Virus record (IMG/VR): IMGVR_UViG_3300028398_000002
Coordinates: 1-47,779 of that record
Reading direction: 5' to 3' (one strand)
DNA length: 47,779 bases
Source: a virus
Every line of letters begins with the position of its first letter. Positions within the stretch are counted from its first letter, which is position 1. Shown here one piece after another: positions 611 through 17,284 of the stretch. The notes beneath the pieces were generated by a model, which saw only the letters and a list, made by a program, of their open reading frames with translations, did no database searches and was not told where the DNA came from. The translations under genes were made by a program, and so were the position numbers.

Positions 611-1257
611 GAACGTTTTAAAAATTTTCACGCTAACCGAAACTTCGACGCCAAACCGGATAAATCACACGCCGTAAATCCGCAAATCACCACAAACGCC
701 CTAACTATTAACGCGCGTAACATGCGCGCATTTAAAATTTTAAACTATTGACTCTAAACTTATACAATTTGAAAGTGTAAATGTTTAAAAGTCTAATCAA
801 CCTCTCTATTCCTGTAAGGCCCTTTTTTGACTTTTGCCAAAAAAAATATGCAAAATCCGCAACAACTGCTTAAAAAATAGGCAATCAATTTTTCCGATTT
901 TTATTTATATATGCAATAGGGATTTTATACACTTAGACAAATAGAAATCAAATAAAAAAATATTATAGTTAAATAATGGGCGGTGTGTGCTGTTAGCCGC
1001 CAAAATAAGAGGGTTAGCGTGTGATTAGTGCCTCAAAAAATTCTCTTGAAAAATTGTGGATTTTTTGTATTAAAATTTTTCTTGAAATTTAGACTTGTAT
1101 AATACAAAGACTATATATTAATTTTTCTAATATTACCCCTATATTAAACAGGTCTAATAGAATTTGCTCGATTTTATACTGAACTTTTTATGCTTTATAT
1201 AAACTTTTACTTTTTATATTTATTAAAATCTCTTTTCAGTTTTATTTAAGTCAACTA

Positions 1258-1266
1258 TGTTACAAT
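1258..1266 (+). promoter_or_regulatory. Extended -10 promoter for the primase gene
   Basis: TG-T-TACAAT is an extended -10 element whose predicted start near 1272 leaves a leader of about 24 bases before the primase ATG. There is no clear -35 box; the upstream region is T-rich instead, as in promoters of several AT-rich bacteria. An alternative start from TTGAAA-N16-TATTAA at 1046-1073 would give a leader of over 200 bases. Confidence 0.45.
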
Positions 1267-1295
1267 ACTCGTACAAAAACAAAAAGGAGGTCAAA

Positions 1296-4200
1296 ATGAG
1301 AGTACCAAAACTCTTTATTAATTCGAATTCATTTGTATATACAGATGACACTAAAATCCCGTTCGATATAAAGACGGGTAAGAGAGCTTCAGTAGTCAAC
1401 GAGGCTACGTGGAGTACTTACCGAGAAGCCAAAGACTTCATTGAATCACATCCCGATAACGTTTTAGGTGTGGTCGTAAACGAACCCTTTGTGTGCATTG
1501 ATTTAGATCACGTGCTGCCTATTCATCAAAACAAAGTAGACGAGCTGCTAAGTTCGCTTACTGCACAAATCGGTAATTTCTACGCTGAAATTTCTCCCTC
1601 AAATCACGGTCTTCATTTGTGGTTCAAAACGTCCGGAAACTACCGTTATATTGGCAGAAAACTCGAATCTAAATTCGGATTCACCATCGAAATATACTCC
1701 GGCGGTAAGCGTTATATCACCGTAACCGGAAATACCTACGGTGACTATAGTGATGAAAACGTCGACACATGCAATTTCGATGTACTTATCGACGCGATAC
1801 AGAATACATTCCTGATAGATATTTCAACTGATACCGATACATCCGAATTACCTTGTAATCCTTATCAACTACAAAATTATGTACTAACTCACTACCCAGA
1901 ATTAGGACTCGATACTTCGAAACTATCCCCGCAACGATTGAATGAAGTTATCCACACGGCCGATATATTGAACCCTTTGACATACGGAGCTATGTTGAGA
2001 GAAGGTGAGCCGGATGTTAGTAAAATAGAATTTCGTTTGTGTGTAGAATTTATGAAACGTGGAATTTTTGATATATCCATCATAGATAAATACTATCGCG
2101 AAAGCAAACTATATCAATATAGACTAAAAAGCGCCCACCCTAAAAAATGGGCTAAGCGTGAAGATTATAGGTTACGTACGCTTGCAGCCGCTTTTCAAAC
2201 CGTACTTGCAACTACACAAACTAAAATAGAAACGGAGCGCACGATAATGTTAGATTCTCCGAATTTCAGTGACGAAGATAAAATACACTTGACGGAAGAT
2301 GACGTGAAACACGTACCGATACCGTTACAGAAACTTGCATTGAAACAACTCGTTTCAAGCTCACGTGACGAAAACGCTTTAGTCTATACTCACTATCAAA
2401 GCGAGTTGTTACGAGTACGTGACGAATTGAAAGCGTTTTTCGATTGTGAATATGTTCAATTGCCGCTGTCGGTGGTGTCGGTCGTATCGTTACCGCACGA
2501 CGTTCCAAAATATGTTGATATAGAGGCATTATCGGCTTATATCTCGAATATGTTCGTGCAATCTCGACGCGGGCAATATGCGTTATTTTGGTTGTCAAGC
2601 AGCGGAAACCTTCGCACGTTCAACTTGACGAGCTTGGAAGATGCTTTGATGCACGCTTTTGACGATCGAAAATTGAATCTTTTAGGTAGGTTGAAATTTA
2701 TTCCTATACTAAAAAATCATTATGAAAAAGATGCGGAAAAGTTCGCATCAATGCTTTCACTACTTGATGATGCGGAAGTTGTAGGCACGGAATTGTATCA
2801 TCAAAAAGATGTAGATTCGAAACGTATCACAAAATTCATTTCCGATTTTGACGCTCTCGTGCCGCTAAAACTACACGCTGAAAGAGCTAAAATTTTGAAA
2901 GGATTGCGACAGGAAAAGAAAGTATTTGTAGATGCTATCCGAAAATTCTTGATAACCCGTCGTCAGGTCGCATCGAGCATAAAAACCGTGTATCACTACA
3001 ACGAACCGAATTATGTGCGTTTCGACGTTAAGCAGCCTATCTTACACCTCAATAAAATTTTCACTCTGCAATCGGATGACACGGCGCTAACGGAACGAAT
3101 TACGTTACTATCGAAAAGTTTAAAGCGTTTTGTGTCTCCAGATGTAGACGTAAGCTTACCAATCACCGTAAACGGCGGCAATATTGAGTATTTCGCGAGT
3201 AGACTCGATATAGAGAAATTGCGAAACTCCGCTGAATACAAGCTTTTGAAACACCATTTCGAAATAGATGACGTAATTAAATTCATAATAGCGTGTGATG
3301 TGTCGCAAACGGCGGAAAAACTCGGATTTTTATTAGTTCGCGCGCCGTCGAATTTTGGTAAAACATACCTATTCAAAGATATTTTGTCGTTTCTAACTGT
3401 CGAGCTTCCATCCAGTACGTTAACAGAAATTTTGAAAGGTGCTACCGTAGGAGTGTCATCGTTGGAGTTTGATGCGAAAAAAGCGGTGTTCATAGATGAA
3501 TGGCGTGCGAAATACATCGATAAAGTGCAGCTATTATCTTTGGGCAAATATTTGCCGATCACCGCAAAATTCGAATTGCGTAACCACGTGAAGGTAGGCG
3601 CTAAAATTTTTGTTGTGGACGGAGACCCGTTCGGTGAGTCCGTAGATGAGCAATTCCGTAATAGATTTTCGCTATTGAATTTCACTGATAAAGGTACGTT
3701 CGACGAAGCGAAACAAAAGTTCGGATTCGATATATACGATTCTACGCTTGTCGATCGTTTGAAATCGATAGCGTTCATACTTGCAATTCATTACTATCAT
3801 CAAATTTTTCAAGACGGCGTTAACGCAGCGGATAAATTCCTGCTCGATTTTCACGAGCGTCACAAATTGACCGCGACAAGTCTCGACATAGTTGTGCGTG
3901 ATGAGATTCAAAACATATTGAAAGAGGTGTACGAAACGCTGTTATCGCACGGTTTGGATGGTACGAAAGAGGGTGTTGAAAAGTTGCGAAATAACAGTTT
4001 CAGCCTACCTACGAAAGCGCGGCGCTATTTATCGATATTCGCAATTCACAAACCTCGTGACAGAGATATTCCAGTACTTGCCGTGCGTTCTAAAGGCCGC
4101 CTAAAAACATTTTTGATCGAAATGCTTAAAGGTAGCGACACCTTTTCCGAAGCGATGGAGATTATGAAACACGATAAAATTATAGATGATATACTTGATA

Positions 4201-4361
4201 AAAAATTTGTAGCCGTGCACTATTACGACCCCGAAAGAGATGTCGCGAGCCGTAACACGAATTACTACCCGATTAAACTAAACGAGGAATTGTGTATGCA
4301 AGTATTGAACGAAGTTGCGGTGACAAAAACTAAACCCGCTGAAATAGAAATCAAGATATGA
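1296..4361 (+). CDS. Primase-polymerase (AEP) fused to an SF3/D5-like helicase
   Basis: The 1021-residue product should start and drive phage DNA replication. The N-terminal part has archaeo-eukaryotic primase motifs: D69-x-D71 (CIDLD), S102-N-H104, and an acidic E132 strand followed by GGKRYITVTG. The C-terminal part is an ATPase with Walker A APSNFGKT (683-690) and Walker B FIDEW (D734, E735). An alternative upstream ATG at 1257 lacks a ribosome binding site, whereas AAAAAGGAGG precedes the ATG at 1296. The layout is that of stand-alone phage replicases with primase and helicase in one chain. Here a family A polymerase is also present, so it is probably the priming helicase. A likely terminator follows at 4363-4399. 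Confidence 0.85.
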   Translation: MRVPKLFINSNSFVYTDDTKIPFDIKTGKRASVVNEATWSTYREAKDFIESHPDNVLGVVVNEPFVCIDLDHVLPIHQNKVDELLSSLTAQIGNFYAEISPSNHGLHLWFKTSGNYRYIGRKLESKFGFTIEIYSGGKRYITVTGNTYGDYSDENVDTCNFDVLIDAIQNTFLIDISTDTDTSELPCNPYQLQNYVLTHYPELGLDTSKLSPQRLNEVIHTADILNPLTYGAMLREGEPDVSKIEFRLCVEFMKRGIFDISIIDKYYRESKLYQYRLKSAHPKKWAKREDYRLRTLAAAFQTVLATTQTKIETERTIMLDSPNFSDEDKIHLTEDDVKHVPIPLQKLALKQLVSSSRDENALVYTHYQSELLRVRDELKAFFDCEYVQLPLSVVSVVSLPHDVPKYVDIEALSAYISNMFVQSRRGQYALFWLSSSGNLRTFNLTSLEDALMHAFDDRKLNLLGRLKFIPILKNHYEKDAEKFASMLSLLDDAEVVGTELYHQKDVDSKRITKFISDFDALVPLKLHAERAKILKGLRQEKKVFVDAIRKFLITRRQVASSIKTVYHYNEPNYVRFDVKQPILHLNKIFTLQSDDTALTERITLLSKSLKRFVSPDVDVSLPITVNGGNIEYFASRLDIEKLRNSAEYKLLKHHFEIDDVIKFIIACDVSQTAEKLGFLLVRAPSNFGKTYLFKDILSFLTVELPSSTLTEILKGATVGVSSLEFDAKKAVFIDEWRAKYIDKVQLLSLGKYLPITAKFELRNHVKVGAKIFVVDGDPFGESVDEQFRNRFSLLNFTDKGTFDEAKQKFGFDIYDSTLVDRLKSIAFILAIHYYHQIFQDGVNAADKFLLDFHERHKLTATSLDIVVRDEIQNILKEVYETLLSHGLDGTKEGVEKLRNNSFSLPTKARRYLSIFAIHKPRDRDIPVLAVRSKGRLKTFLIEMLKGSDTFSEAMEIMKHDKIIDDILDKKFVAVHYYDPERDVASRNTNYYPIKLNEELCMQVLNEVAVTKTKPAEIEIKI

Positions 4362-4362
4362 C

Positions 4363-4399
4363 CCGCACTTTAAACCGCCTAAGCGCGGTTTTCGTGCGG
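4363..4399 (+). terminator. Stem-loop terminator after the primase gene
   Basis: CCGCAC (4363-4368) pairs with GTGCGG (4394-4399), and inside it AAACCGC (4372-4378) pairs with GCGGTTT (4385-4391). The stem starts right after the TGA stop. The following T-run is interrupted (CTTAATTT), so termination may be partial. It separates the primase transcript from the promoter at 4448. Confidence 0.55.
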
Positions 4400-4447
4400 C
4401 TTAATTTGAGTTGGTCAAAATTTTTTGTCGTTTTTACTGCAAAATAC

Positions 4448-4476
4448 TTGACATTTATTGCAAAATTTGCTATAAT
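4448..4476 (+). promoter_or_regulatory. Perfect consensus sigma70 promoter
   Basis: TTGACA (4448-4453), a 17-base spacer and TATAAT (4471-4476) make a full-consensus sigma70 promoter, probably the strongest in the genome. The predicted start is near 4483, just before the first hairpin of the structured RNA. It drives that RNA and may also read into the small early genes. Confidence 0.9.
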
Positions 4477-4482
4477 ATAAGT

Positions 4483-4730
4483 AAGAAAAGGGGTTAGAGA
4501 TAACCCCAAGAGGCGAGGCCAGCTTAAAGGCCGACCCCAAGACCGCGCGGAGAGACGCGCCGCCCCCGACGACGGTCGGGATGGTGATCGGAGTGTGAGC
4601 GGCTCCGACGGCAAGCGGAGGCCCTACCGTGATAGGGCAGGCTTAACGTGAGCTACGGGCACTAAAATAAGAAGATATTATATCCAAAAGAGTAATGAAG
4701 CTTACTCTTTTGGATATAATATGTTTTGAT
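4483..4730 (+). ncRNA. GC-rich multi-hairpin RNA of unknown class
   Basis: About 245 bases without a gene, much more GC-rich than the flanks, lie directly after a perfect promoter. Stems seen: GGGGTTA/TAACCCC with a GAGA tetraloop (4490-4507); GGCC/GGCC (4517-4532); GCGCG/CGCGC (4545-4560); CCCGAC/GTCGGG (4565-4580); TCGGAG/CTCCGA (4588-4608); GCCCTA/TAGGGC (4621-4638); and a perfect 21-bp stem (4675-4695/4702-4722) followed by GTTTT. No tRNA, group I or group II intron core was recognised. It is either a small noncoding RNA ended by the last hairpin or an extended structured leader for the following operon. Confidence 0.65.
4675..4722. other. Perfect 21-bp inverted repeat (terminator and/or operator)
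   Basis: Arms 4675-4695 and 4702-4722 are perfect complements with a 6-base loop. A short T-run follows (GTTTT), so it may end the upstream RNA. The right arm contains TATAAT (4715-4720), which would place a start near 4727 for the operon beginning at 4762, so the same palindrome could act as a promoter/operator. Confidence 0.7.
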
Positions 4731-4761
4731 ACATATTATGAAAATTTATAGGAGGTGCAGA

Positions 4762-5172
4762 ATGGCTTACTTTAAAAAAGAGTGGGCGGCTGAATTACGA
4801 AGCCGTCTTAGAAAAGAGTTTCCATCTAAAAGCGGATGGAAAATTTCGGTTCGTGTAAAAGATTATCAAGCGGTGTATGTAAAACTTATGTCGGCACCTA
4901 CAACGATAGAAGATGTCGTGGGTGAGCATTATCTAATTGACCTAAAAGATGCAGGATATGTTCGTGTGAATCCGCATTTTATTAATGATAACCTTAGAGG
5001 TGAGCTTGCACGATTCTTTAATCGTGTATTGGAGTTGCTGGTTGAAATTACCGGAACTTCAAGCTCACCTAATGACCCGTATTATCACTATAGTGAGTAC
5101 GGCGATTATCCATATTACACAAAGTTATCGTTAGGAGATTTTGAAAAACCGATTCAATTTAAGGAGGTGTGA
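4762..5172 (+). CDS. Small early protein, LPD29-like
   Basis: 136 residues. The start chosen is the ATG preceded by AGGAGGTG; upstream in-frame codons lack such a signal. The N-terminal half (ELRSRLRKEFPSKSGWKISV followed by a tyrosine and the SAPT segment) resembles the LPD29 domain found in polyvalent proteins of phages and mobile elements. The C-terminal half is rich in Tyr, Pro and Asp (about 105-122). It is the first gene after the structured RNA, and its last codons (KEV-stop) encode the ribosome binding site of the next gene. Function unknown. Confidence 0.7.
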   Translation: MAYFKKEWAAELRSRLRKEFPSKSGWKISVRVKDYQAVYVKLMSAPTTIEDVVGEHYLIDLKDAGYVRVNPHFINDNLRGELARFFNRVLELLVEITGTSSSPNDPYYHYSEYGDYPYYTKLSLGDFEKPIQFKEV

Positions 5173-5173
5173 A

Positions 5174-5739
5174 ATGTTTGGATATAGCGTAAGAGATTAT
5201 CAATCGTTATCGGAATTGGTTAAATCGATTAATTCCGGCGTGTTAGCAGCGAAACCGGAAACGGCAGCCGCCAAATATGCTGTTGAAGCAACGCTTTCAT
5301 ATACGGTTATACGGCCTCGATCGATTTAGAAGATGAGCTTACGGCTCATTTAGATATTCTCTGGGAGGCGGGTGCAAATTTTGACGGCGAAGCAGCGCTT
5401 GAAGAGGCTATAAAGCTTTATACGGATGAGTTGAAACAGATATTGAACTCATCTCCATATAAATTAAAAAAGATTGAAAATAGAGTAGCTTTTAATCAGA
5501 ATGACGTGTGTATTATTTTGGCTACGTTTGAAACTCTATTCGGTGAAGTGTCATTTACGTTGAGCTATTGGTTATATGATGATGGTCCCATTTTTAGAGC
5601 CGCTTTTCTATTTCATGACGGGACGGACGGCGAAAGATTTACCGCTATCCACCCAGCGGGTCGAGTATGGATAGAGAGGGCTGCTGCGTCATCTATCGAC
5701 AGAGCTGATTTAATAGAATTTTTAAAGAAGGAGGTGTGA
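5174..5739 (+). pseudogene. Small early gene interrupted by a one-base frameshift
   Basis: Translation from ATG 5174 (signal AAGGAGGTG) stops at 5327-5329 after 51 residues. The frame one base back is open from 5287 to 5739 and reads like protein (for example ASIDLEDELTAHLDILWEA), ending in the usual KEV-stop/ribosome-binding overlap with the next gene. That second frame has no start signal of its own. One missing base within 5287-5326, for instance in CTTTC, would restore a protein of about 188 residues. No classical slippery heptamer is visible, so a real mutation or a sequencing error is more likely than programmed shifting. The family is not recognised. Confidence 0.75.
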
Positions 5740-5740
5740 A

Positions 5741-5970
5741 ATGGCTTTTATAATGAGCGGAGACGAAACAATTAATATTGATAGTATCTCTCATATCCGA
5801 TTAGTTGAAAATCGACAAACTAAAGAGTTCGGTTTGCTGATTTTTCTAAACGGTAACAGAAAAAACTGTTGGGTGAGCGGGATTTCACTCTTAGATTTAG
5901 CTCTTACGAAGATGCGTACAAAGTGTTATTGAGGGTCACAAAAAATTCTGAGAACATTACTTTAATCTAG
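5741..5970 (+). pseudogene. Small early gene, second one-base frameshift
   Basis: From ATG 5741 the frame gives 63 residues and stops at 5930-5932. The frame one base back, from about 5881, continues as DFTLRFSSYEDAYKVLLRV and ends at TAG 5968-5970, directly in front of the AAGGAGGTGC of the next gene, where a stop is expected. Adding one G to GGG at about 5878-5880 joins both parts into about 76 residues (…VSGDFTLRFSS…). The product is a small unknown protein. The shift is in the same direction as in the preceding gene. Confidence 0.75.
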
Positions 5971-5983
5971 AAGGAGGTGCAAA

Positions 5984-6142
5984 ATGACTAAAAAAGAAGT
6001 AATGGATACAAAGAAAAAGGCTCAAATGTTTAAAGAAATGGCGGAAAAGACATTACAAAACGGTGAGTATGTCACTTTTGACAGTGATGATATTGAAAAC
6101 GTTTTGAATGCTTACATAGCTTCACTGCGGGTTATAAGCTAA
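5984..6142 (+). CDS. Small hypothetical protein (52 aa)
   Basis: ATG 5984 follows AAGGAGGTGCAAA, the standard early signal of this genome, and the frame runs 52 residues to TAA. The product is charged and probably helical, with an N-terminal Lys-rich stretch (TKKEVMDTKKKAQMF) and an acidic middle (DSDDIENVL). No family is recognised. It is kept because both its initiation signal and its spacing match its neighbours. Confidence 0.65.
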   Translation: MTKKEVMDTKKKAQMFKEMAEKTLQNGEYVTFDSDDIENVLNAYIASLRVIS

Positions 6143-6177
6143 TTGTGCGACGAATTGCTAACAAAAGGAGGTGCAAA

Positions 6178-6762
6178 ATGAAACTCGAAACTTTACGAAA
6201 AAGCTCCGCAGCGGAGCTTGAAAACATAGCTAACGCTTACGATCTCCCGTTTACTACGACGGAAGATACGATAAAACGAATTTGCGACGCGGCAGGGCTT
6301 GTTTATGTTAGGCCTGATGCGGATGATATTATAGACAATGCTGAATCACTACCTGTTCCGTATATTTTTGGGTTAACGGATTCGGATGATATTATAAAAA
6401 ACACTCGATTCACAGTTGAGCTGGTTGCACGTATTCGTATTAACGGGCTGATAAAGTCTGGCGGTCAAATGTCGAAACGCGAAAAAGCGGTGTTGATAGC
6501 GACTTACTTTTTGGGTGCTACGAAACAGCACCGCATAGCTGAGACGATTTTAACCGTTCAAACTTTGATGGGTGTGGGCGATTCGAGATTTCACGCTATG
6601 CGAGGCGATTTCAATCATCCGCTACGTTTCGCAATTCACGCTGTTAATATACTTGATGCAAATGAGTTTGAAGCTTTATTTCAACGCGCGGCAATGAAAC
6701 TTGCCGTTGACGACGTTACTGAAAATGATGATGAATTTTTAGAGCAAGGAGGTGTAAAATGA
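6178..6762 (+). CDS. Hypothetical early protein, distant relative of the following paralogues
   Basis: 194 residues from ATG 6178 after AAAAGGAGGTGCAAA. The stretch MSKREKAVLIATYFLGAT (about 100-117) resembles the TLxxNEKGxxIAT segment of the proteins encoded at 6759, 7783, 8147 and 8514, so it may be a longer member of that family. The C-terminus GGVK-stop is the next gene's ribosome binding site read as protein, with ATGA start-stop overlap. Function unknown. Confidence 0.7.
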   Translation: MKLETLRKSSAAELENIANAYDLPFTTTEDTIKRICDAAGLVYVRPDADDIIDNAESLPVPYIFGLTDSDDIIKNTRFTVELVARIRINGLIKSGGQMSKREKAVLIATYFLGATKQHRIAETILTVQTLMGVGDSRFHAMRGDFNHPLRFAIHAVNILDANEFEALFQRAAMKLAVDDVTENDDEFLEQGGVK

Positions 6763-7118
6763 AACTACAAATAAATCATAACGCGGCTACGCTGCCGGAA
6801 GCGTTCGACATAGATTTTACAAAGCAAGCGGATTTATTCATCAAACCGTTTGCAACATTGACCGCAAATGAAAAGGGCTTTATCATAGCGACTCTATTGG
6901 CTGAAAATTGTTCTTATGTAGAGCAGTTAGCTGTCGAGTTGACATGCACGGATGAGCAGGGCTCGATACTGTATAGTAAAATCAAACGTTGGCTTTATGA
7001 CAAAGAACAAATATCGGAAGTTGTGGATGAGTTGTTCACTATGTTGACCGATAGCGAGATCGATAAAGCCGTGTTGATAGCGCGTGTAATGATGAGGACT
7101 ATCGTTGAAAATAGATAA
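6759..7118 (+). CDS. Early paralogous family protein A
   Basis: 119 residues. It shares with the genes at 7783, 8147 and 8514 an N-terminal pattern: a hydrophobic strand, a His at position 7, and then a conserved segment FATLTANEKGFIIATLL. The rest is predicted mainly helical. It starts at ATGA overlapping the previous stop. Tandem small paralogues in an early phage region often include host-takeover or anti-defence proteins, but nothing here shows the function. Confidence 0.7.
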   Translation: MKLQINHNAATLPEAFDIDFTKQADLFIKPFATLTANEKGFIIATLLAENCSYVEQLAVELTCTDEQGSILYSKIKRWLYDKEQISEVVDELFTMLTDSEIDKAVLIARVMMRTIVENR

Positions 7119-7129
7119 GGAGGTGCAAA

Positions 7130-7786
7130 ATGAAATTGAACGACATTATAAAGATAATGAAACCATTTGCGGCGACTGCATCTACTCCAATGAGATATAA
7201 AGAGCATTGCAGAGACGAAATGGTTTACATCTATGGCAGCCCAAAAGGGCTGGTAGCGAGTAACCTTTACGCTTTTTTGTGGGTAGGCGTGCCAGCCGAT
7301 CGGTCAGGATTGATTAGGGTTCGACCAAACGACTCGACTGACGGTGTGCTAACTACGTCGTTAGGGTCGGCTCCTGCATTACTATCGTTGACGCCTGTAG
7401 TAATACATAAATGGGAGTTAGCTATTAAAGGTCACGAGGAAACAAAACATTATACGTTTGACGATTTCGGAGATTCAAATTTACGTTTAGCGGATATAAT
7501 GAGCTTTACTGCTACACATTCGAAAATAATTTATTCGGTAGCGTTAGAGCCGCTCATAAAATTTGTCAAAAATAAAAATGTTTCAATCAGCACGATAGGG
7601 ATACCTGATGACTCGAATAGAAACGTTTTGTTTCTTGCCGGAAAGATTAAAAAATCCGATACAAGCGTACCGTTTGTAGCGTCGTTTTCGCTACTCGATG
7701 TAAACTACGAGCACAATCAAACTTACGATAAAAAGCGGGTGACGAAAGTGCTTAACTCTATTGAAACTTTTGGAGGTGTAAAATGA
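7130..7786 (+). CDS. Hypothetical early protein (218 aa)
   Basis: ATG 7130 follows AAGGAGGTGCAAA. The 218-residue product seems soluble, with alternating strand-like segments and a C-terminal stretch (about 150-190) around SISTIGIPDD and VPFVASFSLLDV. It interrupts the run of paralogues (6759 before, 7783 after) and is translationally coupled to the latter by a GGVK-stop/ATGA overlap. I do not recognise a family; the strand-rich pattern alone does not justify a clamp or binding-protein label. Confidence 0.65.
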   Translation: MKLNDIIKIMKPFAATASTPMRYKEHCRDEMVYIYGSPKGLVASNLYAFLWVGVPADRSGLIRVRPNDSTDGVLTTSLGSAPALLSLTPVVIHKWELAIKGHEETKHYTFDDFGDSNLRLADIMSFTATHSKIIYSVALEPLIKFVKNKNVSISTIGIPDDSNRNVLFLAGKIKKSDTSVPFVASFSLLDVNYEHNQTYDKKRVTKVLNSIETFGGVK

Positions 7787-8145
7787 ATGTAATTTTCGAT
7801 CACGAAAAAGAGAAGATTACGGATGCGGTCGGTGTAACTGACTTTGCCGCTGCAATGGAAAAACCGCTTTCGGAAATGAGCGACACGGAAAGAGTCGCTA
7901 TGGCCGGAATTGGTTTACAATCGATATTGAAGCGTGACGAGTTTGACGGTTTGTGCTTTTTCATAGAAAAAGAGCGCGGTATACTAATTTCAGAGCAATT
8001 TAGAGATTGGTTGAGGAATAACTCTAAAATTACGAAAATTTTGGAATTAATGGTAAAAGTATACCCTGAACTAATTGAAAAGTTGGCGTTCATAGGCTAT
8101 CTACGGGCGGCAACTTACTACACATACAATAATGAGGAGGTGTGA
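7783..8145 (+). CDS. Early paralogous family protein B
   Basis: 120 residues. It is closest to the next gene: both begin MNVxFDH, have AVGVTD at about 16-21 and the segment MSDTERVAMAGIG (LTDNEKVALAGIG in the neighbour), then a C-terminal block with IEKLAFIG. Start is ATG 7783, overlapping the previous TGA. The two are clearly products of gene duplication that have diverged. Confidence 0.75.
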   Translation: MNVIFDHEKEKITDAVGVTDFAAAMEKPLSEMSDTERVAMAGIGLQSILKRDEFDGLCFFIEKERGILISEQFRDWLRNNSKITKILELMVKVYPELIEKLAFIGYLRAATYYTYNNEEV

Positions 8146-8146
8146 A

Positions 8147-8512
8147 ATGAATGTGAAATTTGATCATACAAAAGACCAAATTGATAAAGCCGTAGGTGTG
8201 ACTGATACGTTTGCGTTGGTACAAAAATCGTTTTCGAAACTAACGGATAACGAAAAAGTGGCGTTAGCGGGTATCGGTTATAACGTGTTGAGAGCCGACG
8301 AAAATAAACTATTGAGTTTCATATTTAATATTGAAGCGGATGTAGGTTCCGCTGCGTGCGTAAAAATTGGCGAAACGATAGCGAATGAAACGAAAGTGTC
8401 GAAAGTTCTTGAAACTCTTATGAACGAATATCCTGATTCGATAGATAAATTAGCTTTTATCGGGCGAATAGAGCTACTGTCGAAAATTTTAAATGAGAAA
8501 GAGGAGGTGTAA
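8147..8512 (+). CDS. Early paralogous family protein C
   Basis: 121 residues from ATG 8147 after GAGGAGGTGTGAA. It is a paralogue of the preceding gene along its whole length (MNVKFDH, AVGVTD, LTDNEKVALAGIG, IDKLAFIG). It ends EEV-stop, again encoding the ribosome binding site of the next family member. Function unknown. Confidence 0.75.
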   Translation: MNVKFDHTKDQIDKAVGVTDTFALVQKSFSKLTDNEKVALAGIGYNVLRADENKLLSFIFNIEADVGSAACVKIGETIANETKVSKVLETLMNEYPDSIDKLAFIGRIELLSKILNEKEEV

Positions 8513-8513
8513 A

Positions 8514-8897
8514 ATGAATATAAAATTTAACCATAGCGGAGAAACAATATTCAATGCGTTCAACGTACCGAACGACAGAGAAGGTCATATTTTGGTAGAC
8601 AAGCTTGAAACGTTGAGCGATAACGAAAAAGGGCTGCTGATTGGCTTAGCTTTGACGGCAGCCGATAATGCAGAACAACAGTTCGCGTTTGAACTATCAG
8701 AGCTGAACAATAGTGCTTTTATGACCGAATACACACGGTTGAACCGTCGCGTAGCAAATACTCTAATTTCAAAAGCAGTGGAGAATCTATGTTACGATTA
8801 CTCGGAAAATGAATTAGATGTAATGGTACGTGTTTCACGAGTAATACTCCGTCACATTGCATATCATAACGTTAAAGGAGGTAATAATGAGGAATGA
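8514..8897 (+). CDS. Early paralogous family protein D
   Basis: 127 residues from ATG 8514. It shares MNIKFNH, an AF-V motif and LETLSDNEKGLLIGLAL with the other three paralogues and is closest to the first one (6759) in its C-terminal half (…LISKAVENL… versus …ISEVVDELF…). The end of the gene overlaps the start of the HTH gene by 11 bases, and its codons for KGG supply that gene's ribosome binding site. Confidence 0.75.
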   Translation: MNIKFNHSGETIFNAFNVPNDREGHILVDKLETLSDNEKGLLIGLALTAADNAEQQFAFELSELNNSAFMTEYTRLNRRVANTLISKAVENLCYDYSENELDVMVRVSRVILRHIAYHNVKGGNNEE

Positions 8898-9063
8898 GGT
8901 TAAACTTTCTAACGTAGCACGCGCTACAGGCGTGCCACAACGTACGCTTTACGAGTGGAAACGTACGCGGCGGAAACTATTTGATGTTTTGATCGAGTGG
9001 TATGTTAAAATATATCTACCGAAAACACTGAACGGAGAAAAAAGTGTGTCCGGCGACGTTTAA
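8887..9063 (+). CDS. Small helix-turn-helix DNA-binding protein
   Basis: 58 residues from ATG 8887 after AAAGGAGGTAATA; a longer in-frame start would lack this signal. Residues 6-25 (KLSNVARATGVPQRTLYEWK) form a clear helix-turn-helix with the recognition helix QRTLYEWKRTRRKL, followed by a basic stretch. It is probably a phage transcriptional regulator. The operator is unknown; the palindromes at 4675-4722 and 79-138 are candidate targets. Confidence 0.7.
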   Translation: MRNEVKLSNVARATGVPQRTLYEWKRTRRKLFDVLIEWYVKIYLPKTLNGEKSVSGDV

Positions 9064-9280
9064 ATTGGCATTCCACGCGGTAGCGTGGTGTATGTCTCCG
9101 CCGCAATGGGTTGATATAGCGTTTTGTTTGCCTAATGCGCCGGATAAACACGGGATAGCGTGCGTAAAAAGCGGCAATGAGTTAAAGAGCGTCAATGTAG
9201 AAATGGCTACGGTAAAAGGCCGTGAAATCTTTGTGATCGATAGGTGTGACAATGTTGAAGCTGCGGAAATGGCAAAGTGA
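9044..9280 (+). CDS. Hypothetical protein (78 aa), GTG start
   Basis: GTG 9044 follows GGAG at 9034-9037 and overlaps the end of the HTH gene by 20 bases. The product is 78 residues, with an AFHAVAWCMSPPQWVDIAF stretch near its N-terminus. It overlaps the helicase start by 29 bases. Start signal and tight packing support it, but it has no recognised family. Confidence 0.5.
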   Translation: MCPATFKLAFHAVAWCMSPPQWVDIAFCLPNAPDKHGIACVKSGNELKSVNVEMATVKGREIFVIDRCDNVEAAEMAK

Positions 9281-10460
9281 GTTCATAGCGTGGTACAGCA
9301 AAAACTGCGATCAACGCCCATCCGTGTATTTGCACGGTGATTTGGGCACGGGTAAAACTATCGGAGCGTTAGCGTTGTTAGCCAAACTCGATTTAAAGCC
9401 GGATAATTTTTTCATTTTGGCGCCGCTTTCGGCTCATCCGTCGTGGCAAAACGACGCTAAACATTTCAATATTGAAATCAAGCCGAATAAAAATCTATTT
9501 ACCTATGAAAAGTTTGTGCGTTTAACCAAAATTCCGGTTGTAAAATTTATCGTTTGCGACGAAGCGCACCGTCTTAAAAACGTCGAGGCTAAAATCACAA
9601 AAAGATTGTGGAAATATTATCGAGACATCCCAAAACTTTTGATGTCCGGCACTATGGCCGATCGCGAATATGAGCTATTTTCACAATTTCGATTGATTGA
9701 CAAAAAACTATTTGGCGATTTGAGTTGGACTAAGTTCAAACGTAAATACTTTTTCGTAGACTCTTACGGTCGGCCGACGGCGCTATTATCAAAAGAAGCG
9801 CGTAATGAGATAATTGAAACAATTCAGCCATACATTTACCGCGTGTCGCTTGATGATGTCGAAATGCCGGAATTGGCGTGTCTCTATACGAAATTACCAC
9901 CGTCTAAAAAGATCATTGAGAAATGGCGCGATTTCGAATCGGAAATTGAAAATCCGATCGCGTCATTTACCCGCGAATACGCTATCGCTCAGGGTATTGA
10001 CCCTGAAACCGGAGAGCTTTTCGACAAAACCAAAATAGACTGGGTGTTGGATTTCTTGCAAGACAACCCAAAAACAATTGTGTTTTCATATTTTCGCGCT
10101 CCGGTACTTGAAATCAAAAAGCGTTTAGGGGATAAATTTTTCTATGTTTTAGGAGACTATAAAAATGACGTCGAAAGTATATTGACCGCCGGAAATCGAC
10201 CAGTAATCGCTACATACGCTATTGCGGAGGGTATCAATTTACAACACAATTATAACACGTTGTTATATATGAGTTTGCCGCTTGCATATCGATCGTATTA
10301 CCAATCGAGGGGGCGTGTGTATCGTAGCGGACAGAAATATAAAGTCGTAGCTCAACATATTTTGATGCAGCCGATCGACTACGAAGTGAAGCGTATTATC
10401 GACAAAAAAGAGGAACTGGCGGAATATCTACGACATAGACCCGTAGCGGGATACAAATAG
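9252..10460 (+). CDS. SNF2-like superfamily 2 helicase
   Basis: The 402-residue ATPase probably translocates on or unwinds DNA during replication or recombination. Motif I is GDLGTGKT (about residues 27-34), motif II DEAH (about 97-100, in VCDEAHRLKN), motif III SGT, and motif VI is in QSRGRVYRSGQ near 350, an arrangement typical of compact phage SNF2-type helicases. ATG 9252 is preferred over GTG 9246 because TAGG lies 7 bases upstream. It heads the block with dUTPase, VRR-NUC nuclease and DNA polymerase. Confidence 0.88.
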   Translation: MLKLRKWQSEFIAWYSKNCDQRPSVYLHGDLGTGKTIGALALLAKLDLKPDNFFILAPLSAHPSWQNDAKHFNIEIKPNKNLFTYEKFVRLTKIPVVKFIVCDEAHRLKNVEAKITKRLWKYYRDIPKLLMSGTMADREYELFSQFRLIDKKLFGDLSWTKFKRKYFFVDSYGRPTALLSKEARNEIIETIQPYIYRVSLDDVEMPELACLYTKLPPSKKIIEKWRDFESEIENPIASFTREYAIAQGIDPETGELFDKTKIDWVLDFLQDNPKTIVFSYFRAPVLEIKKRLGDKFFYVLGDYKNDVESILTAGNRPVIATYAIAEGINLQHNYNTLLYMSLPLAYRSYYQSRGRVYRSGQKYKVVAQHILMQPIDYEVKRIIDKKEELAEYLRHRPVAGYK

Positions 10461-10470
10461 GAGGTGTAAA

Positions 10471-10740
10471 ATGAAGGATAAAAATATAGCTGAGGCGGAG
10501 AAATTAATTTATCTAATACAAGATGAGATAGATAAATATATTTCTACCAATAGAAAACCACCAAATGTCATTTTAGTCGATGAGGCTACATATATAACGA
10601 TAAAGCGTTATGCAAATGAGGTATTTCCGAGATTGAGCCCTTTATTCATAGAAAATTGTTTTGACAGAGTTGATACGTTATTCGGCTTGCCCTTAGCGGT
10701 TTTTTACGGTGTTAAGGGTCGGGTTTTGAAAGTATTTTGA
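10471..10740 (+). CDS. Hypothetical protein (89 aa)
   Basis: ATG 10471 follows AGGAGGTGTAAA. The 89-residue product has an N-terminal helix and then a compact alpha/beta pattern (NVILVDEATYITIKRY, DTLFGLPLAVF). It lies between the helicase and dUTPase in the replication block. No family was recognised. Confidence 0.65.
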   Translation: MKDKNIAEAEKLIYLIQDEIDKYISTNRKPPNVILVDEATYITIKRYANEVFPRLSPLFIENCFDRVDTLFGLPLAVFYGVKGRVLKVF

Positions 10741-10753
10741 TAAGGAGGTGTAT

Positions 10754-10984
10754 ATGAAAAGGTTTAATGTGATTGTACATTACACGGTTGTGAAACAAAA
10801 CGGTGAAACGGTTGAAAGCGGAGATTTGTCGTATAGCAGCGTAAGTAATACGACTTTTGACGAAACGATACCGGATATAGTATCGGATGTAACATTTGCA
10901 TTATCGAAAGCTCACAATTTCGAAAACAATCAACGTGCGCTATATCTTGAAATAATACCGATAAAGGAGAGTTCCAATGTTTAA
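10754..10984 (+). CDS. Hypothetical protein (76 aa)
   Basis: ATG 10754 is preceded by AAGGAGG 6 bases upstream; the in-frame GTG at 10748 overlaps that signal and is rejected. The product is strand-rich (RFNVIVHYTVVKQNGETVESG) with a C-terminal helix. It overlaps the dUTPase start by 8 bases, so the two are probably co-translated. Unknown function. Confidence 0.65.
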   Translation: MKRFNVIVHYTVVKQNGETVESGDLSYSSVSNTTFDETIPDIVSDVTFALSKAHNFENNQRALYLEIIPIKESSNV

Positions 10985-11414
10985 AGTTAAAGATAGTCGG
11001 TTTTTACCGCAACGTCAAACGGCTCATAGCGCCGGACTCGATGTTAAAGCGCGGAGTATTATATGCTGTCATCCACAACGAATAGCTTTCGTTCCGATAG
11101 GTGTGTGGATTGATCAATCGTCACACGATTATTTTGAATTACGTGAAACTCACTATATCGGATTGTATATCCGATCTTCGTTGGCTAAAAAAGGTTTGAT
11201 GCTGGCAAATGGAACCGGAATTATAGACATGGATTATCCGAATGAAATTATGATGATGATTTACAACGCCGGAACCGATTCATATACGATAATGGAAGGA
11301 GATCGAATCGGTCAAATAATCATTCAGCCACACAATTCGGCTCAAATTGCTGAAGGTTGGGAGTGTGTAACCGATACGCGCGAGGGCGGTTTTGGTTCGA
11401 CAGGTAAATCGTGA
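10977..11414 (+). CDS. dut: dUTP diphosphatase
   Basis: 145 residues, the usual length of a trimeric dUTPase, converting dUTP to dUMP and pyrophosphate. All five motifs are visible: AGLDVKA (19-25), RSSLAKKG (about 68-75), GIIDMDYPNEI (about 81-91), EGDRIGQ, and the C-terminal REGGFGSTG. It keeps uracil out of phage DNA and feeds dUMP to the ThyX encoded at 17537. Confidence 0.93.
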   Translation: MFKVKDSRFLPQRQTAHSAGLDVKARSIICCHPQRIAFVPIGVWIDQSSHDYFELRETHYIGLYIRSSLAKKGLMLANGTGIIDMDYPNEIMMMIYNAGTDSYTIMEGDRIGQIIIQPHNSAQIAEGWECVTDTREGGFGSTGKS

Positions 11415-11427
11415 AAGGAGGTGCAAA

Positions 11428-11436
11428 ATGACATAA
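11428..11436 (+). other. Two-codon minigene ATG-ACA-TAA with full ribosome binding site
   Basis: AAAGGAGGTGCAAA, the strongest initiation signal type of this genome, is followed by ATG ACA TAA, nine bases before the start of the nuclease gene at 11446. It could be an accident of gene loss, a device for reinitiation at 11446, or a minigene comparable to the lambda bar minigenes (ATG ATA TAA). Confidence 0.5.
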
Positions 11437-11445
11437 AGGATTTTT

Positions 11446-11784
11446 ATGAAACCAGTATACACAAAAATCTGGGAGTACACACCGCCAAAACCGAAACGTT
11501 TCGAAGCTGAAAAAGAAACGTATCAATACTTTAAACGTGTGATCGGTTTTAAAGGTGGATTTAAATTGTACTCTCCCGTACTTCGTGGATTGCCGGATTT
11601 TGTAGTTACGGAGTTACAACACGAAAAGTTAAATGCGGGCTTTTATGAGGTCAAATTTAAAAATAATTGGCTTCGGCCGACGCAGGAAAAGATACTTTTC
11701 GAGTTGTCTAAAATAGCTCCTGTTTATGTTGTCAATATTCAAGTCGACGGCAGTTTAGCCGTTAAACAGTTAATACGTTTTTAA
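11446..11784 (+). CDS. VRR-NUC family nuclease
   Basis: 112 residues with the PD-(D/E)xK pattern of VRR-NUC enzymes: RGLPDFVV (about 44-51), FYEVKFKNNWLRPTQEKIL (about 65-83). The catalytic set would be D48, E67 and K69, with Q79 from the following helix. Phage members cut branched DNA, such as Holliday junctions. It lies between dUTPase and the polymerase. Its own signal is only AAAGGA, so translation probably depends partly on the minigene upstream. Confidence 0.82.
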   Translation: MKPVYTKIWEYTPPKPKRFEAEKETYQYFKRVIGFKGGFKLYSPVLRGLPDFVVTELQHEKLNAGFYEVKFKNNWLRPTQEKILFELSKIAPVYVVNIQVDGSLAVKQLIRF

Positions 11785-11829
11785 GCGTATTGATGATAAA
11801 ATAAAATATATCTTAAATAGGAGGTCATT

Positions 11830-12342
11830 ATGAGTAAATTCATAGTAGTTACCGAAGAGGTTGGCAATAGCCCGTTTAAACAATTTAAATTTGAAGAAGT
11901 CGGCACGTCTTTGCCGATACTTTTGATGTCTCTTGGTGATGCTACATCACCGGAATATGGTGATTTTGTTGTGCTTCAAGGACTTCAATTTAACCCTGAG
12001 GCGAAAAGTTTGGATGAGTTGATCGAAACGGCTCAACTCGTAAGCTTTCCGAACCAGACCGTTTTGAATAATAAAATACAAAGCGGCGCTATGAGGCTAC
12101 GTGAACCGTATATTATCACTCTAAAATGGAAAAAAGGTGATAAGTATGACAACGGCAAAAAAGTTTGCAAGTCGAACGGCTATGAAGTCGTTCATGTCGT
12201 ATTCAAAGACGACGTAAAAGAAAAGCTAATAGAGCGCTATCATCAACTATTGGGTGAAAACGAGTCACTCGTGGCGGCTACGGTTCCGGTAGATGAGTCG
12301 GTAGAAACCGATAGTAAATCAGTATACGAGCCGAAACTTTAA
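11830..12342 (+). CDS. Replication-block protein of unknown function
   Basis: 170 residues from ATG 11830 after TAGGAGGTCATT. The N-terminal 130 residues look mixed alpha/beta, and the tail (from about 145) is acidic and low-complexity (VPVDESVETDSKSVYEPKL). A soluble core with an acidic tail next to the DNA polymerase would fit a single-stranded DNA-binding protein, but no OB-fold signature can be pointed to. The hairpin at 12345-12360 follows directly. Confidence 0.6.
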   Translation: MSKFIVVTEEVGNSPFKQFKFEEVGTSLPILLMSLGDATSPEYGDFVVLQGLQFNPEAKSLDELIETAQLVSFPNQTVLNNKIQSGAMRLREPYIITLKWKKGDKYDNGKKVCKSNGYEVVHVVFKDDVKEKLIERYHQLLGENESLVAATVPVDESVETDSKSVYEPKL

Positions 12343-12344
12343 TA

Positions 12345-12360
12345 GCCCGCTTTCGCGGGC
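12345..12360 (+). promoter_or_regulatory. Hairpin abutting the polymerase ribosome binding site
   Basis: GCCCGC-TTTC-GCGGGC forms a 6-bp GC stem whose last base touches GGGAGGTG, the ribosome binding site of the polymerase at 12373. There is no T-run after it, so it is not a normal terminator. A stem in this place could limit polymerase translation; T4 polymerase binds such a hairpin in its own mRNA. Confidence 0.55.
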
Positions 12361-12372
12361 GGGAGGTGTAAA

Positions 12373-14112
12373 ATGAAAGTAAAATTAACGTCTTTGCCAG
12401 CGTCGCTTTCTGGTAAGTATGTATTTCTCGATACGGAAACAGTCGGGCTATATGGAAAAATCCGACTGGTTCAAATGTACGTTTGTGAGCCGCATAAAGA
12501 GCGCGGCGACTTGTTTCTCATAGATTGTTTCACGACGCCCGTCGTAAAGGTAATTTCTCTATTGTACGAAGCCGAAAAATTGATCGGCCATAACCTGCTT
12601 TACGATTTTCACTGCTTAAAGCAATGCGGCTTCAATGTTGATGAAGTGAATTTTGACGATACGTTTCTACTATCGCGTTTATCTAAACCTATGTGGGAGA
12701 AGTACGGGTTAGATAGATGTCTACAAAATGTTTTAGGAATTGATATTTATGCAAAGTATCTGGGTGAAGATGCTAAAAAACGACTTCAGCGTAGCAAATG
12801 GGACGGTGAGCTGCTTGATGAGCAACTATTATATGCAGCGCTTGATGTTGTGTATCTGCCGGAATTGTACTCTAAAATCTCCCACGCGAGTAAAATGATT
12901 AGTTATGAATTAGATAAACGTACGGTAGTTAATTTTGTGAAGATGGCTGGTAAACTTCCGGTAGACGTCGAGGCTATGACGGAATCGAAGCGTTCGTATG
13001 AAACACAAATATTGGAAATGAACGTACCGATTAACGTCAATTCATTTAAACAAGTTAGAGAATATCTTGACAGTGACGAAAGTGATGATGACGCGCTGGC
13101 ACGCCTATCGGCTGATACGAGTGTACCTGAAAGAGCCGCACGCGCTAAAAATGTCAGGCAAACTCGAAAATTGAGAAAACTAATCTCTTTTATAGATTCG
13201 TATTTGCCGCGAATAGATGATGACGGCTACATACACGGTCATCTTAATCTATCCCCGATCACTGGCCGAAGTGGGTGTGATGAGGTCAATCTTCAGCAGA
13301 TACCGTCAACGCTGAAATCACTTTTCAAATCTAAAGATAAATTTTTAATATATGCCGATTTTTCAAATTTGGAGTTGCGGACATTTGCCGCTGTAGTAGG
13401 TGATGAAACAATGGCGACTCTATTGAAAAGCGGTGTGGATATGCACCGCTATGTTGCGGCGTTTCTTTTTGAAAAGAGTGAAGATGAGGTGACTAAAAAA
13501 GAGCGGAAAATAGCTAAAACGTTTAATTTCAGTTCGCTATATGGTGCAAATTGGGTTAAAAAGCAGGCTATTCTGTTAAAACAGACTGGTATCTATCTAC
13601 CGGATGACGAGATGGAAAAATTGCATCTACGTTGGTTTCAACTTTTCCCTACAGTTTGGCGCTGGCATAGAGAAAGTGCCAAAAAACAACGTGCCGGAAT
13701 GTTTACGAGCACACCGCTGGGCCGTGAAGTTTTTGCGAATAGGCTAAATATGTGGCTAAACGTCCCGATTCAAGGTGCAGGAGCCGAAATTGCAAAACTT
13801 GCGTTGAATTATATGTTGAAACATATCGACCCTGAAAAGTTTTTACTTTTTGTACACGATAGTTATACGCTTGAAAGCGCTACGGAAAGAGACGCTATCG
13901 AGATAGCTAAACACGTTGCGCACGCTATGGCAGCCGCGTGGCGTGAATATATGCCGTTATGCGCTATTCAAGATATTCCTATGCCGATAGATGTCGATAT
14001 AGCGCCGCCCAATGTTTCGTGGGCGGAGCTTCAAGAAGGCGAAAATATTTGCGGCCGCGTGACCGCGACAGGATTAATTGGCTCAAAAATAGAACTTAAA
14101 AAGGAGGTGTGA
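12373..14112 (+). CDS. Family A DNA polymerase with 3'-5' exonuclease
   Basis: The 579-residue enzyme is a replicative Pol I-type polymerase. Its exonuclease domain has D20-x-E22 (DTETVGL), D78 in HNLLYDFH and Y154/D158 in YAALDVVY. The polymerase domain has motif A ADFSNLELR (near 330), motif B KTFNFSSLYG (near 380) and motif C VHDSY (near 493). In motif C the usual HDE is HDS, while the metal-binding Asp remains. It has no 5' nuclease domain, as is normal for phage enzymes. It ends KEV-stop and is coupled to the following nuclease. Confidence 0.92.
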   Translation: MKVKLTSLPASLSGKYVFLDTETVGLYGKIRLVQMYVCEPHKERGDLFLIDCFTTPVVKVISLLYEAEKLIGHNLLYDFHCLKQCGFNVDEVNFDDTFLLSRLSKPMWEKYGLDRCLQNVLGIDIYAKYLGEDAKKRLQRSKWDGELLDEQLLYAALDVVYLPELYSKISHASKMISYELDKRTVVNFVKMAGKLPVDVEAMTESKRSYETQILEMNVPINVNSFKQVREYLDSDESDDDALARLSADTSVPERAARAKNVRQTRKLRKLISFIDSYLPRIDDDGYIHGHLNLSPITGRSGCDEVNLQQIPSTLKSLFKSKDKFLIYADFSNLELRTFAAVVGDETMATLLKSGVDMHRYVAAFLFEKSEDEVTKKERKIAKTFNFSSLYGANWVKKQAILLKQTGIYLPDDEMEKLHLRWFQLFPTVWRWHRESAKKQRAGMFTSTPLGREVFANRLNMWLNVPIQGAGAEIAKLALNYMLKHIDPEKFLLFVHDSYTLESATERDAIEIAKHVAHAMAAAWREYMPLCAIQDIPMPIDVDIAPPNVSWAELQEGENICGRVTATGLIGSKIELKKEV

Positions 14113-14114
14113 AA

Positions 14115-14891
14115 ATGGAAAAGATAACTATTCGGCCGTCATCAATTTCGACGTTTGTAAATTGCAATTATAAATGGTTTCGACATCATATCAAAGGCGA
14201 CCCCGTAATTCCAAATATACGAATGACGGTCGGGACGGCGGTGCATAAAGGCGCTGAAGTCGGCTATACAGAAAAAATGGTGCGCGGTTCGCTTCCGCCG
14301 CTTTCAGTGATGACGGATGCAGCGATAGAAACGTTTCACGAAAAATTGAAAGAGGATGAGCCGCAGCGTGACGACACGCCGCTGAATGATTGGGAGAAAA
14401 CGATCGTTACCGACATTGATCTATATGCCCCTATTATGAAAACGGTTACACCCGTTGCGGTTGAAAAGCGCTATGAAGTGCGGCTAAACAATCCGCATAT
14501 TGAAAGCGTTGCGGGTACTCTCGATATTGTATTACGCGGCGGAGTAGGTGACATCAAAACGACCGCGCGAAAAGCGACGCCTTCAAAATACGCTTTGCAA
14601 CTTTCAACTTATGCGCTTTTAGCGAGTAAAATCGAAAATAAAATCTACAACACAGCTGAAATTCACAATATAGTCCACGATAGAGATATATACGTAATGC
14701 CGCTACAATTAAAAATCGAGCAGGCGCGGTTTGTGATAAACAATATGATTGATAAAGTAAATGCGTATTTTGACGGTATCGCATCTGGTGAAACATTGTT
14801 TAGCGGCAATCCGGCGTCACCGTTGTGTAGTTCGAAATATTGTGAGCTTTATAATGAATGTCCGTTTGTAAAAGGAGGTGTGAAATGGTAG
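14115..14891 (+). CDS. Cas4/RecB-like PD-(D/E)xK nuclease with Fe-S cysteines
   Basis: 258 residues from ATG 14115 (AAGGAGGTG upstream). Nuclease motifs are HKG near 45, GTLDIVL near 135, GDIKT near 145 and a QLSTYALL helix. One Cys near the N-terminus (VNCNYKWF) and three in the C-terminal CSSKYCELYNEC match the four-Cys iron-sulfur arrangement of Cas4/AddB-like nucleases. It probably resects or processes DNA ends during replication or recombination, working with the polymerase upstream. Confidence 0.85.
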   Translation: MEKITIRPSSISTFVNCNYKWFRHHIKGDPVIPNIRMTVGTAVHKGAEVGYTEKMVRGSLPPLSVMTDAAIETFHEKLKEDEPQRDDTPLNDWEKTIVTDIDLYAPIMKTVTPVAVEKRYEVRLNNPHIESVAGTLDIVLRGGVGDIKTTARKATPSKYALQLSTYALLASKIENKIYNTAEIHNIVHDRDIYVMPLQLKIEQARFVINNMIDKVNAYFDGIASGETLFSGNPASPLCSSKYCELYNECPFVKGGVKW

Positions 14892-14968
14892 AGAAATATT
14901 ATCGCGAATTGATTTTGATAATTGTGTTGATAGGCGTGGTTATTGGAATGTTGCAGGAGATAAAATGA
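14885..14968 (+). CDS. Single-span membrane micropeptide (27 aa)
   Basis: ATG 14885 follows AGGAGGTGTGAA encoded in the end of the nuclease gene. The frame gives 27 residues with a basic N-terminus (MVEKYYRE) and one hydrophobic segment (LILIIVLIGVVIGML). Its stop overlaps the next ATG (ATGA). Ribosome binding site and coupling support it as real. Confidence 0.6.
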   Translation: MVEKYYRELILIIVLIGVVIGMLQEIK

Positions 14969-15264
14969 AACGGTTTGATTATTCTATCGAAGAGATTTAC
15001 GATTGCAGCTTTGAAGAGTTTTGCCGACGTGCGTATATAAGTCCCGAAACGTTCATTCGATTGATAGAAGCTGAGATTGAAATTTTAACCGATGCGCGGA
15101 TTCGATTAGGCGAAAAGTTTAAACGGGTCGATCTTTTCTCTAAAGAGTGGGATTACTATAACGGACTGTTATGCGAAATTAACAAGCGTATCGAGTCGAA
15201 ACAAGCTAAACGTCGAAAATATCTCTTAGCATTTAGGAGGTTAAACAATGCTGATCAGAGCTAA
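14965..15264 (+). CDS. Hypothetical protein (99 aa)
   Basis: 99 residues from ATG 14965 after CAGGAG. It is charged and mostly helical, with a long helix at about 30-60 (IRLIEAEIEILTDARIRLG) and a basic C-terminus (KQAKRRKYLLAFRR). It overlaps the next gene by 17 bases. No family recognised. Confidence 0.65.
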   Translation: MKRFDYSIEEIYDCSFEEFCRRAYISPETFIRLIEAEIEILTDARIRLGEKFKRVDLFSKEWDYYNGLLCEINKRIESKQAKRRKYLLAFRRLNNADQS

Positions 15265-15478
15265 CACATATTACAAACTTAGAAACGGTGAAATTGTGTA
15301 TATAACACATATAATACCGCCATTGGTTGGATTTCCACGCCCCGAAAATCCGGTTATTGGTATTGGGCAAAAGAGCGGGTTTATGACGTGGGACGAAAAC
15401 GGCGTGTATGCTAAACATAGCAGCTACAATATAGAAAAACCAATATCACAAAAGGAGGTGACAAATGAGCAACGTTGA
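15248..15478 (+). CDS. Hypothetical protein (76 aa)
   Basis: ATG 15248 follows TTAGGAGGTTAAACA. The 76 residues start with an SH3-like strand pattern (NTYYKLRNGEIVYITHII) and end KEVTNEQR because the next ribosome binding site lies inside the gene. Unknown function. Confidence 0.65.
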   Translation: MLIRANTYYKLRNGEIVYITHIIPPLVGFPRPENPVIGIGQKSGFMTWDENGVYAKHSSYNIEKPISQKEVTNEQR

Positions 15479-15800
15479 AAACACGCTGAAAGAGCGCGGA
15501 GCGGTTCACGGTGATTTTAGTTTAAACGCTGAAATTGCACAAAGTTTAAAAGAGGTATGTCGGCCATATAGTGAAAAATTGACTGTAGAAGAGCGCGAAT
15601 CGTTGGATTATATTCTCCAAAAGATTGCCCGTGTGCTCAGTAAAGGCGGGTTGTATAAGGATGATTGGCGCGATATAGCGGGTTACGCCACTTTAGCAAT
15701 GAATTCACTCGATAAATATGAAGGTGCTACCGATAGCAAAGTGATAAAAATGAAACTGTCTTTTGATTTAATCTGGGAGGAGGTGGAAAATGAAACTTAA
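15465..15800 (+). CDS. DUF6378-like phage protein
   Basis: 111 residues. The pattern LKERGAVHGDFSLNAEIAQ at the N-terminus and LQKIARVLSKG, DDWRDIAGYATLAM in the second half match the small helical DUF6378 family common in phages and prophages of unknown role. ATG 15465 follows AAAGGAGGTGACAA, and the C-terminus overlaps the next gene by 11 bases. Confidence 0.75.
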   Translation: MSNVENTLKERGAVHGDFSLNAEIAQSLKEVCRPYSEKLTVEERESLDYILQKIARVLSKGGLYKDDWRDIAGYATLAMNSLDKYEGATDSKVIKMKLSFDLIWEEVENET

Positions 15801-16311
15801 ACCGTGCGGCTGTGGCCGCACACCTACCGAATTATCAACATACGGTAATTATATCGGAGAATACACTTTTATTTATGGTAATTGTTGCGGTGAATGGTTT
15901 GTAGAAGTCCCTACTGATTACGAAAAAGACCCTGAGAAACTACAAAAAATAATGATGTCGGGATGGAATGAAGCTGAGCGCTACGATGTCAAAAATTCGA
16001 TAACACCCGTCAAAAAATATTCTAATCTCGATGTTTTGCTTCGACCGAAATTGTGGCTTCGTAATTATCCTGTCAATGAAGGCTGGGATGATAAGTTAAA
16101 TCAACTGATGGATAACGGTGTGGGAGTTAAACGATTAAATCACTATGAAGTTGTTTTTGATGATGGTACGGTAATCTGGGTGTCTAATTTTCCATACGCT
16201 TATGGAAGTAACGGTTTAAATGATGGTTATTTACCATCACGAAAAACCGCTCTACGTTTAGCAAAATATCTTGCGTTAAATGTACGTTATAAGGAGGTGA
16301 AAAATGGTTGA
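15790..16311 (+). CDS. Lar-like zinc-ribbon protein with an extra C-terminal domain
   Basis: 173 residues. The first 60 residues (LKPCGCGRTPTELS, then YGNCCGEWFVEV, then MMSGWNEAERY) resemble the Lar/restriction-alleviation zinc ribbon: paired cysteines, a strand and a closing W-N. Residues 65-173 form an additional domain not found in short Lar proteins. Some Lar proteins reduce type I restriction, so an anti-restriction role is possible but not shown. Confidence 0.6.
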   Translation: MKLKPCGCGRTPTELSTYGNYIGEYTFIYGNCCGEWFVEVPTDYEKDPEKLQKIMMSGWNEAERYDVKNSITPVKKYSNLDVLLRPKLWLRNYPVNEGWDDKLNQLMDNGVGVKRLNHYEVVFDDGTVIWVSNFPYAYGSNGLNDGYLPSRKTALRLAKYLALNVRYKEVKNG

Positions 16312-16585: not shown

Positions 16586-16595
16586 GAGGTGCAAA

Positions 16596-17012: not shown

Positions 17013-17021
17013 GAGGTAAAA

Positions 17022-17273: not shown

Positions 17274-17284
17274 GGAGGTGTGAA

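Follow-up and report, generated by a model that had tools for sequence, protein, structure and literature searches.

Positions 4448 to 4730 of a 47,779-nucleotide virus record (IMGVR_UViG_3300028398_000002; this entire stretch is called the window below) carry a strong promoter followed by a long GC-rich segment, which raises the question of whether the segment specifies a functional RNA and, if so, how that RNA acts. An earlier note on this DNA had proposed an unassigned functional RNA, in the form of a discrete, terminated transcript acting in trans. The terminase, portal, HK97-type capsid and J-like fibre genes of the window lie on the minus strand and the replication genes on the plus strand. 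A 127-base end repeat (1-127 and 47653-47779) is as long as a typical assembler k-mer overlap, and from the sequence the genome is probably circular in the assembly, representing a near-complete siphovirus.

The promoter (TTGACA-17-TATAAT) lies on the plus strand at 4448-4476 and matches the sigma70 consensus at 12 of 12 positions, in agreement with its earlier description as perfect. It is the sole exact match in the window, where 0.03 would be expected by chance. Transcription is predicted to start near 4483. The spacer contains a GCAAAATTTGC dyad (4460-4470), which by its sequence may serve as an operator.

The RNA predicted from this start (4483-4735) folds with a free energy of -109.3 kcal/mol (z = -7.9), and none of 200 shuffled sequences was as stable. 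A fold scan of the whole window placed 4321-4800, together with 1-240, among the most structured of 1192 scanned segments. The stretch is GC-rich, and the seven hairpins that had been reported in it were recovered between 4490 and 4722 as P0, P1, P2, P3, P4, P5 and an AU-rich hairpin. The z-score is owed largely to two of them. P0 (GGGGUUA-GAGA-UAACCCC, 4490-4507, plus strand) and the AU hairpin (20-21 bp, 4675-4722, plus strand), which is flanked by an A-tract and a U-tract, each had a pair probability of 0.99. The plus-strand core between them, P1-P5 (4511-4648), was less distinctive, with z = -1.7 when 4508-4665 was folded alone without restriction and z = -3.3 (1 of 300 shuffles) when 4511-4648 was folded locally. 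Thus, folding energy alone is no proof of the core.

Evidence for the core came from a related phage, IMGVR_UViG_3300028030_000017 (G001), found via an alignment of DNA polymerases from six phages. Large parts of G001 and the window are collinear, and identity is 75% for the capsid, 67% for the terminase, 60% for the helicase and 52% for the DNA polymerase. A homologous RNA is present on the minus strand of the G001 contig L059 (12663-12513), behind the same type of promoter and downstream of the primase gene and a number of small genes. G001 has six exact-consensus sigma70 promoters (L059 positions 16486, 15879, 15540, 14464, 13026 and 12705, minus strand), of which five drive small genes and the sixth drives the homologous RNA. 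In most of them the -35 element is overlain by a TACTTGACA..TCAAGTA dyad, which differs from the dyad of the window; this common dyad suggests that a single repressor controls all six.

The strongest conservation was observed in P1 and P2. P1 (4512-4537) contains 2 + 4 bp, a CGA/GAC internal loop and a AGCNNAAA loop; P2 (4545-4560) has a stem of 5 bp and a GARAGA loop. This region aligns between the two phages over 50 ungapped columns with 10 differences, six of which fall in stems and pair up exactly as three double compensatory changes, each in a different helix (two in P1 and one, G-C to U-A, in P2). All 11 pairs (22 cells) are kept, whereas only 18-40% pair when the partners are slid, and simulated random substitution gave a probability of about 5e-5 for this compensatory pattern. 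Loops and linker (AGCNNAAA, GARAGA and CCANGACC) are also conserved across the two phages.

The remainder of the core was compared by structure. P3 (4561-4586; pair probability 0.96-1.00) occupies the same position in G001 and shares its conserved CGC/GUG base. The position of P4 (4588-4608), UCGGAG/CUCCGA in the window and CACGCC/GGCGUG in G001, is matched under local folding; in the window its pair probability was 0.25 in the unrestricted fold and 0.88 with the span set to 50. P5 (4613-4644; pair probability 0.91-0.95) is a two-part stem with a 6-nt loop, and its G001 counterpart, a 6-bp stem with a 6-nt loop, appeared under local folding only. The order P1, 7-nt linker, P2, P3, P4, P5 is common to both independently made local folds, which were closer to one another than all 1000 shuffles. 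When P3-P5 alone were shuffled, 55-113 of 1000 were as close, and the match in order of these modelled hairpins is suggestive only. Neither P0 nor the AU hairpin occurs in the G001 RNA. The GAGA-loop hairpin pointed out previously is thus present but not conserved. Of the reported 21-bp stem and T-run the stem is real, but the tail is only GUUUUGAU, a weak terminator tail.

Comparison of the two phages also excluded a coding function. Nonsynonymous codons outnumber synonymous ones in all six frames, and an antisense open reading frame (4614-4351) was rejected because of this excess and the lack of a ribosome-binding site. Neither a tRNA nor a tmRNA was found in the stretch. Although the RNA resembles ROOL, GOLLD, HEARO, 6S and raiA RNAs in being GC-rich, structured and non-coding, and some of these are carried by phages, a search of the window against Rfam 15 with these families included gave no hit at the gathering threshold. 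At E values up to 10 only sub-threshold matches were obtained, mainly to miRNA hairpins, and none was credible; the miRNA matches covered the AU hairpin only and were discarded. The G001 RNA did not match Rfam either. As its fold has been kept through matched mutations in a distant relative, we conclude that this is a real functional RNA, and the sequence comparison supports placing it outside the known families, as the earlier note had proposed.

In both phages the RNA starts the main early operon, which in the window extends from 4762 to 22101 on the plus strand and encodes a helicase, DNA polymerase, nuclease, ThyX, ribonucleotide reductase and a sigma factor. The latter (phrog_351; 21589-22101), located at the operon end and 51% identical in G001, suggests a switch for late transcription. 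No promoter matching at least 11 of 12 consensus positions follows the RNA on the plus strand of the window up to 22101, or on the operon strand in the stretch of G001 that was read. The first gene of the operon (4762-5172, plus strand) encodes an LPD29 domain (PF18847/phrog_10415) and is preceded by a Shine-Dalgarno sequence (AGGAGG, 4750-4755). In G001, the Shine-Dalgarno sequence is followed by only MPYLTAQRL where the LPD29 gene would be. This peptide resembles LPD29 starts in other phages (MAYITTEQ...) and looks like a remnant. Since the RNA was kept in G001 where the gene is only a stub, it is not just a switch for the LPD29 gene and probably serves more than that gene.

The same observation bears on the possibility that the RNA is a 5'-UTR that stabilises early mRNA or tunes its translation, through 5' end protection or protein-binding autoregulation, and does not act on polymerase. 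Its location directly 5' of the first Shine-Dalgarno sequence would suit such a role, as would the 5'-terminal P0 in the window and the proximity of a stem to the Shine-Dalgarno sequence in G001. However, P0 is not conserved, the presumed first gene is a stub in G001, and the conservation of loops and linker exceeds what a stability stem needs. We consider this explanation unlikely.

A DNA-level element, such as a replication origin, a hairpin primase loading site or an RNA that primes replication, is very improbable. The RNA does adjoin the 3' side of the primase gene in the window, and a sign change of the GC skew falls within the primase region, followed by an upward step beyond 4400. In G001, however, several small genes lie between the RNA and the primase gene while the position relative to the promoter is kept, and the retention of a G-U pair in P3 is slight evidence for RNA. 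Across window positions 1-23000 the skew climbs from about 0 in the primase gene to about +0.2 downstream of the RNA, a rise to be expected were heavy transcription to begin at this point; the step is slight in G001. The window primase itself (1034 amino acids; 1257-4361) has no Pfam match; over its N-terminal portion it matches primases including that of Nitratiruptor phage NrS-1.

Whether the transcript ends before the operon is central to the proposal of a discrete RNA acting in trans. Cleavage at the 21-bp hairpin by an enzyme such as RNase III, or termination there, would release a free regulator, decoy or anti-defence RNA, and the very strong promoter, the compact GC-rich fold, and the RNase III-type size and A-tract/U-tract flanks of the AU hairpin are consistent with this scheme. 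From its sequence the hairpin may be a terminator (at best a weak one), a pause or an RNase III site. However, the terminator characteristic of a stand-alone phage small RNA is represented in the window only by a weak U-tract, and in G001 both the AU hairpin and any terminator between the RNA and the next ribosome-binding site are missing. Moreover, a ribosome-binding site lies directly downstream in both phages, in G001 about 10 nt past the last stem, which is GC-rich. A free trans-acting RNA is therefore possible but doubtful, and the earlier view of a discrete, terminated transcript is not supported: the RNA sits as an operon leader in both phages, and the hairpins emphasised in that view are unconserved. 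That the RNA precedes the operon in both phages, and that G001 lacks a terminator, favours a leader acting in cis.

A classical attenuator switch is not visible in this leader because no competing pairing was predicted between the AU hairpin and the core; the hairpin arm pairs elsewhere in the window RNA with a probability of 0.0002. A possible overlap of stems was seen in G001 alone. With no such alternative pairing, a long operon, and a strong stem directly after the leader, elongation becomes the likeliest target. We thus infer both the action in cis and the action on elongation, and tentatively favour a structured 5' leader of the early operon, working mainly in cis, that would modify elongation much as the put RNA of phage HK022 does. 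According to this model, host RNA polymerase with the housekeeping sigma factor would initiate at the perfect, probably repressible promoter, and the nascent RNA would fold immediately into the compact chain P1-P5. Next, the chain would meet the strong stem just ahead of the first gene, which is the AU hairpin in the window and the GC stem in G001. The folded leader, by itself or together with a factor from host or phage, would alter the elongating polymerase such that it reads through this stem and the following ~17 kb by processive antitermination or anti-pausing. Apart from the leader stem, no convincing intrinsic terminators needing suppression were found within the operon.

The comparison with put is one of arrangement. 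Like HK022 putL and putR, the RNA is a phage cis element of consecutive stem-loops that opens an early operon behind a sigma70 promoter, and putL is situated just downstream of its promoter (PMC9378689). Put suppresses termination by binding the zinc-binding domain of the RNA polymerase beta' subunit, and by analogy the present RNA may modify polymerase similarly. It lies downstream of an early promoter and ahead of the early operon as put does, but it is larger, with ~140 nt and five hairpins compared to ~70 nt and two stem-loops. A relationship by sequence was rejected, as the best match of the RNA covariance model to the whole HK022 genome scored 6.7 bits (E = 2.9).

The boxB elements of phage lambda are stems with GNRA-like loops, and the 5-bp stem and GARAGA loop of P2 are similar. 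Unlike lambda nut, the conserved fold is larger here; inspection by eye revealed neither a boxA-like CGCTCTTA upstream of P2 nor an evident arginine-rich N-like segment in the first operon genes. We regard it as a new phage RNA whose general kind, the structured operon leader, is already known, and by sequence it belongs to none of the families tested.

RNA-only antitermination has been described in very few phages. That this leader is a new class unrelated to put, which alone makes polymerase resistant to termination and drives the 17-kb operon, with the second leader described below perhaps doing likewise, is quite improbable. If this were true, a second unrelated RNA at the same genome place would mean that phages invented such a device more than once, and it would provide a new handle on RNA control of RNA polymerase. 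Should the RNA act in another way, it is still a structured RNA supported by comparing two phages, missing from Rfam and carried by a phage group of which hardly any members have been sampled.

Across IMG/VR motif scans, phage records and 399 genomes of one phylum, the RNA is known from two phages only; the 399-genome search, confined to a single phylum that may not be that of the host, is weak evidence of absence. RNA motif scans yielded 8 viral and 37 genome hits, of which only G001 was real and the rest had no RNA context; another 24 loci were retrieved with a looser motif, all lacking the remainder of the RNA. No credible match to the covariance model was obtained in 41 other phage loci or 7 genomes, and a single 26-bit hit among the 399 genomes, from the phylum around a Clostridia MAG, was dismissed as lying in GC-rich, coding-looking DNA. 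Blastn against phages returned only promoter or short chance matches. Single-protein scans with the primase and the DNA polymerase found no relatives, and a host search in two phyla by capsid and terminase gave remote matches or none. Similarity of the window to L107, a 15-kb contig with a capsid match of 50%, is limited to structural genes.

A second multi-hairpin leader precedes the terminase operon on the minus strand of the window (486 to ~75), behind the strong minus-strand promoters TTGACA-17-TACAAT (521-493) and TTGACA-17-TAAAAT (610-582). Its fold has z = -8.7, and still -4.4 without the last, 24-bp hairpin (138-79). It had no match in Rfam, and the G001 contig does not include the corresponding region. 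Between 352 and 288 (minus strand) it contains two tandem, near-identical terminator-like hairpins, GCCGGAUU(U/G)ACUAUCCGGC, with GUGUUAUUU tails.
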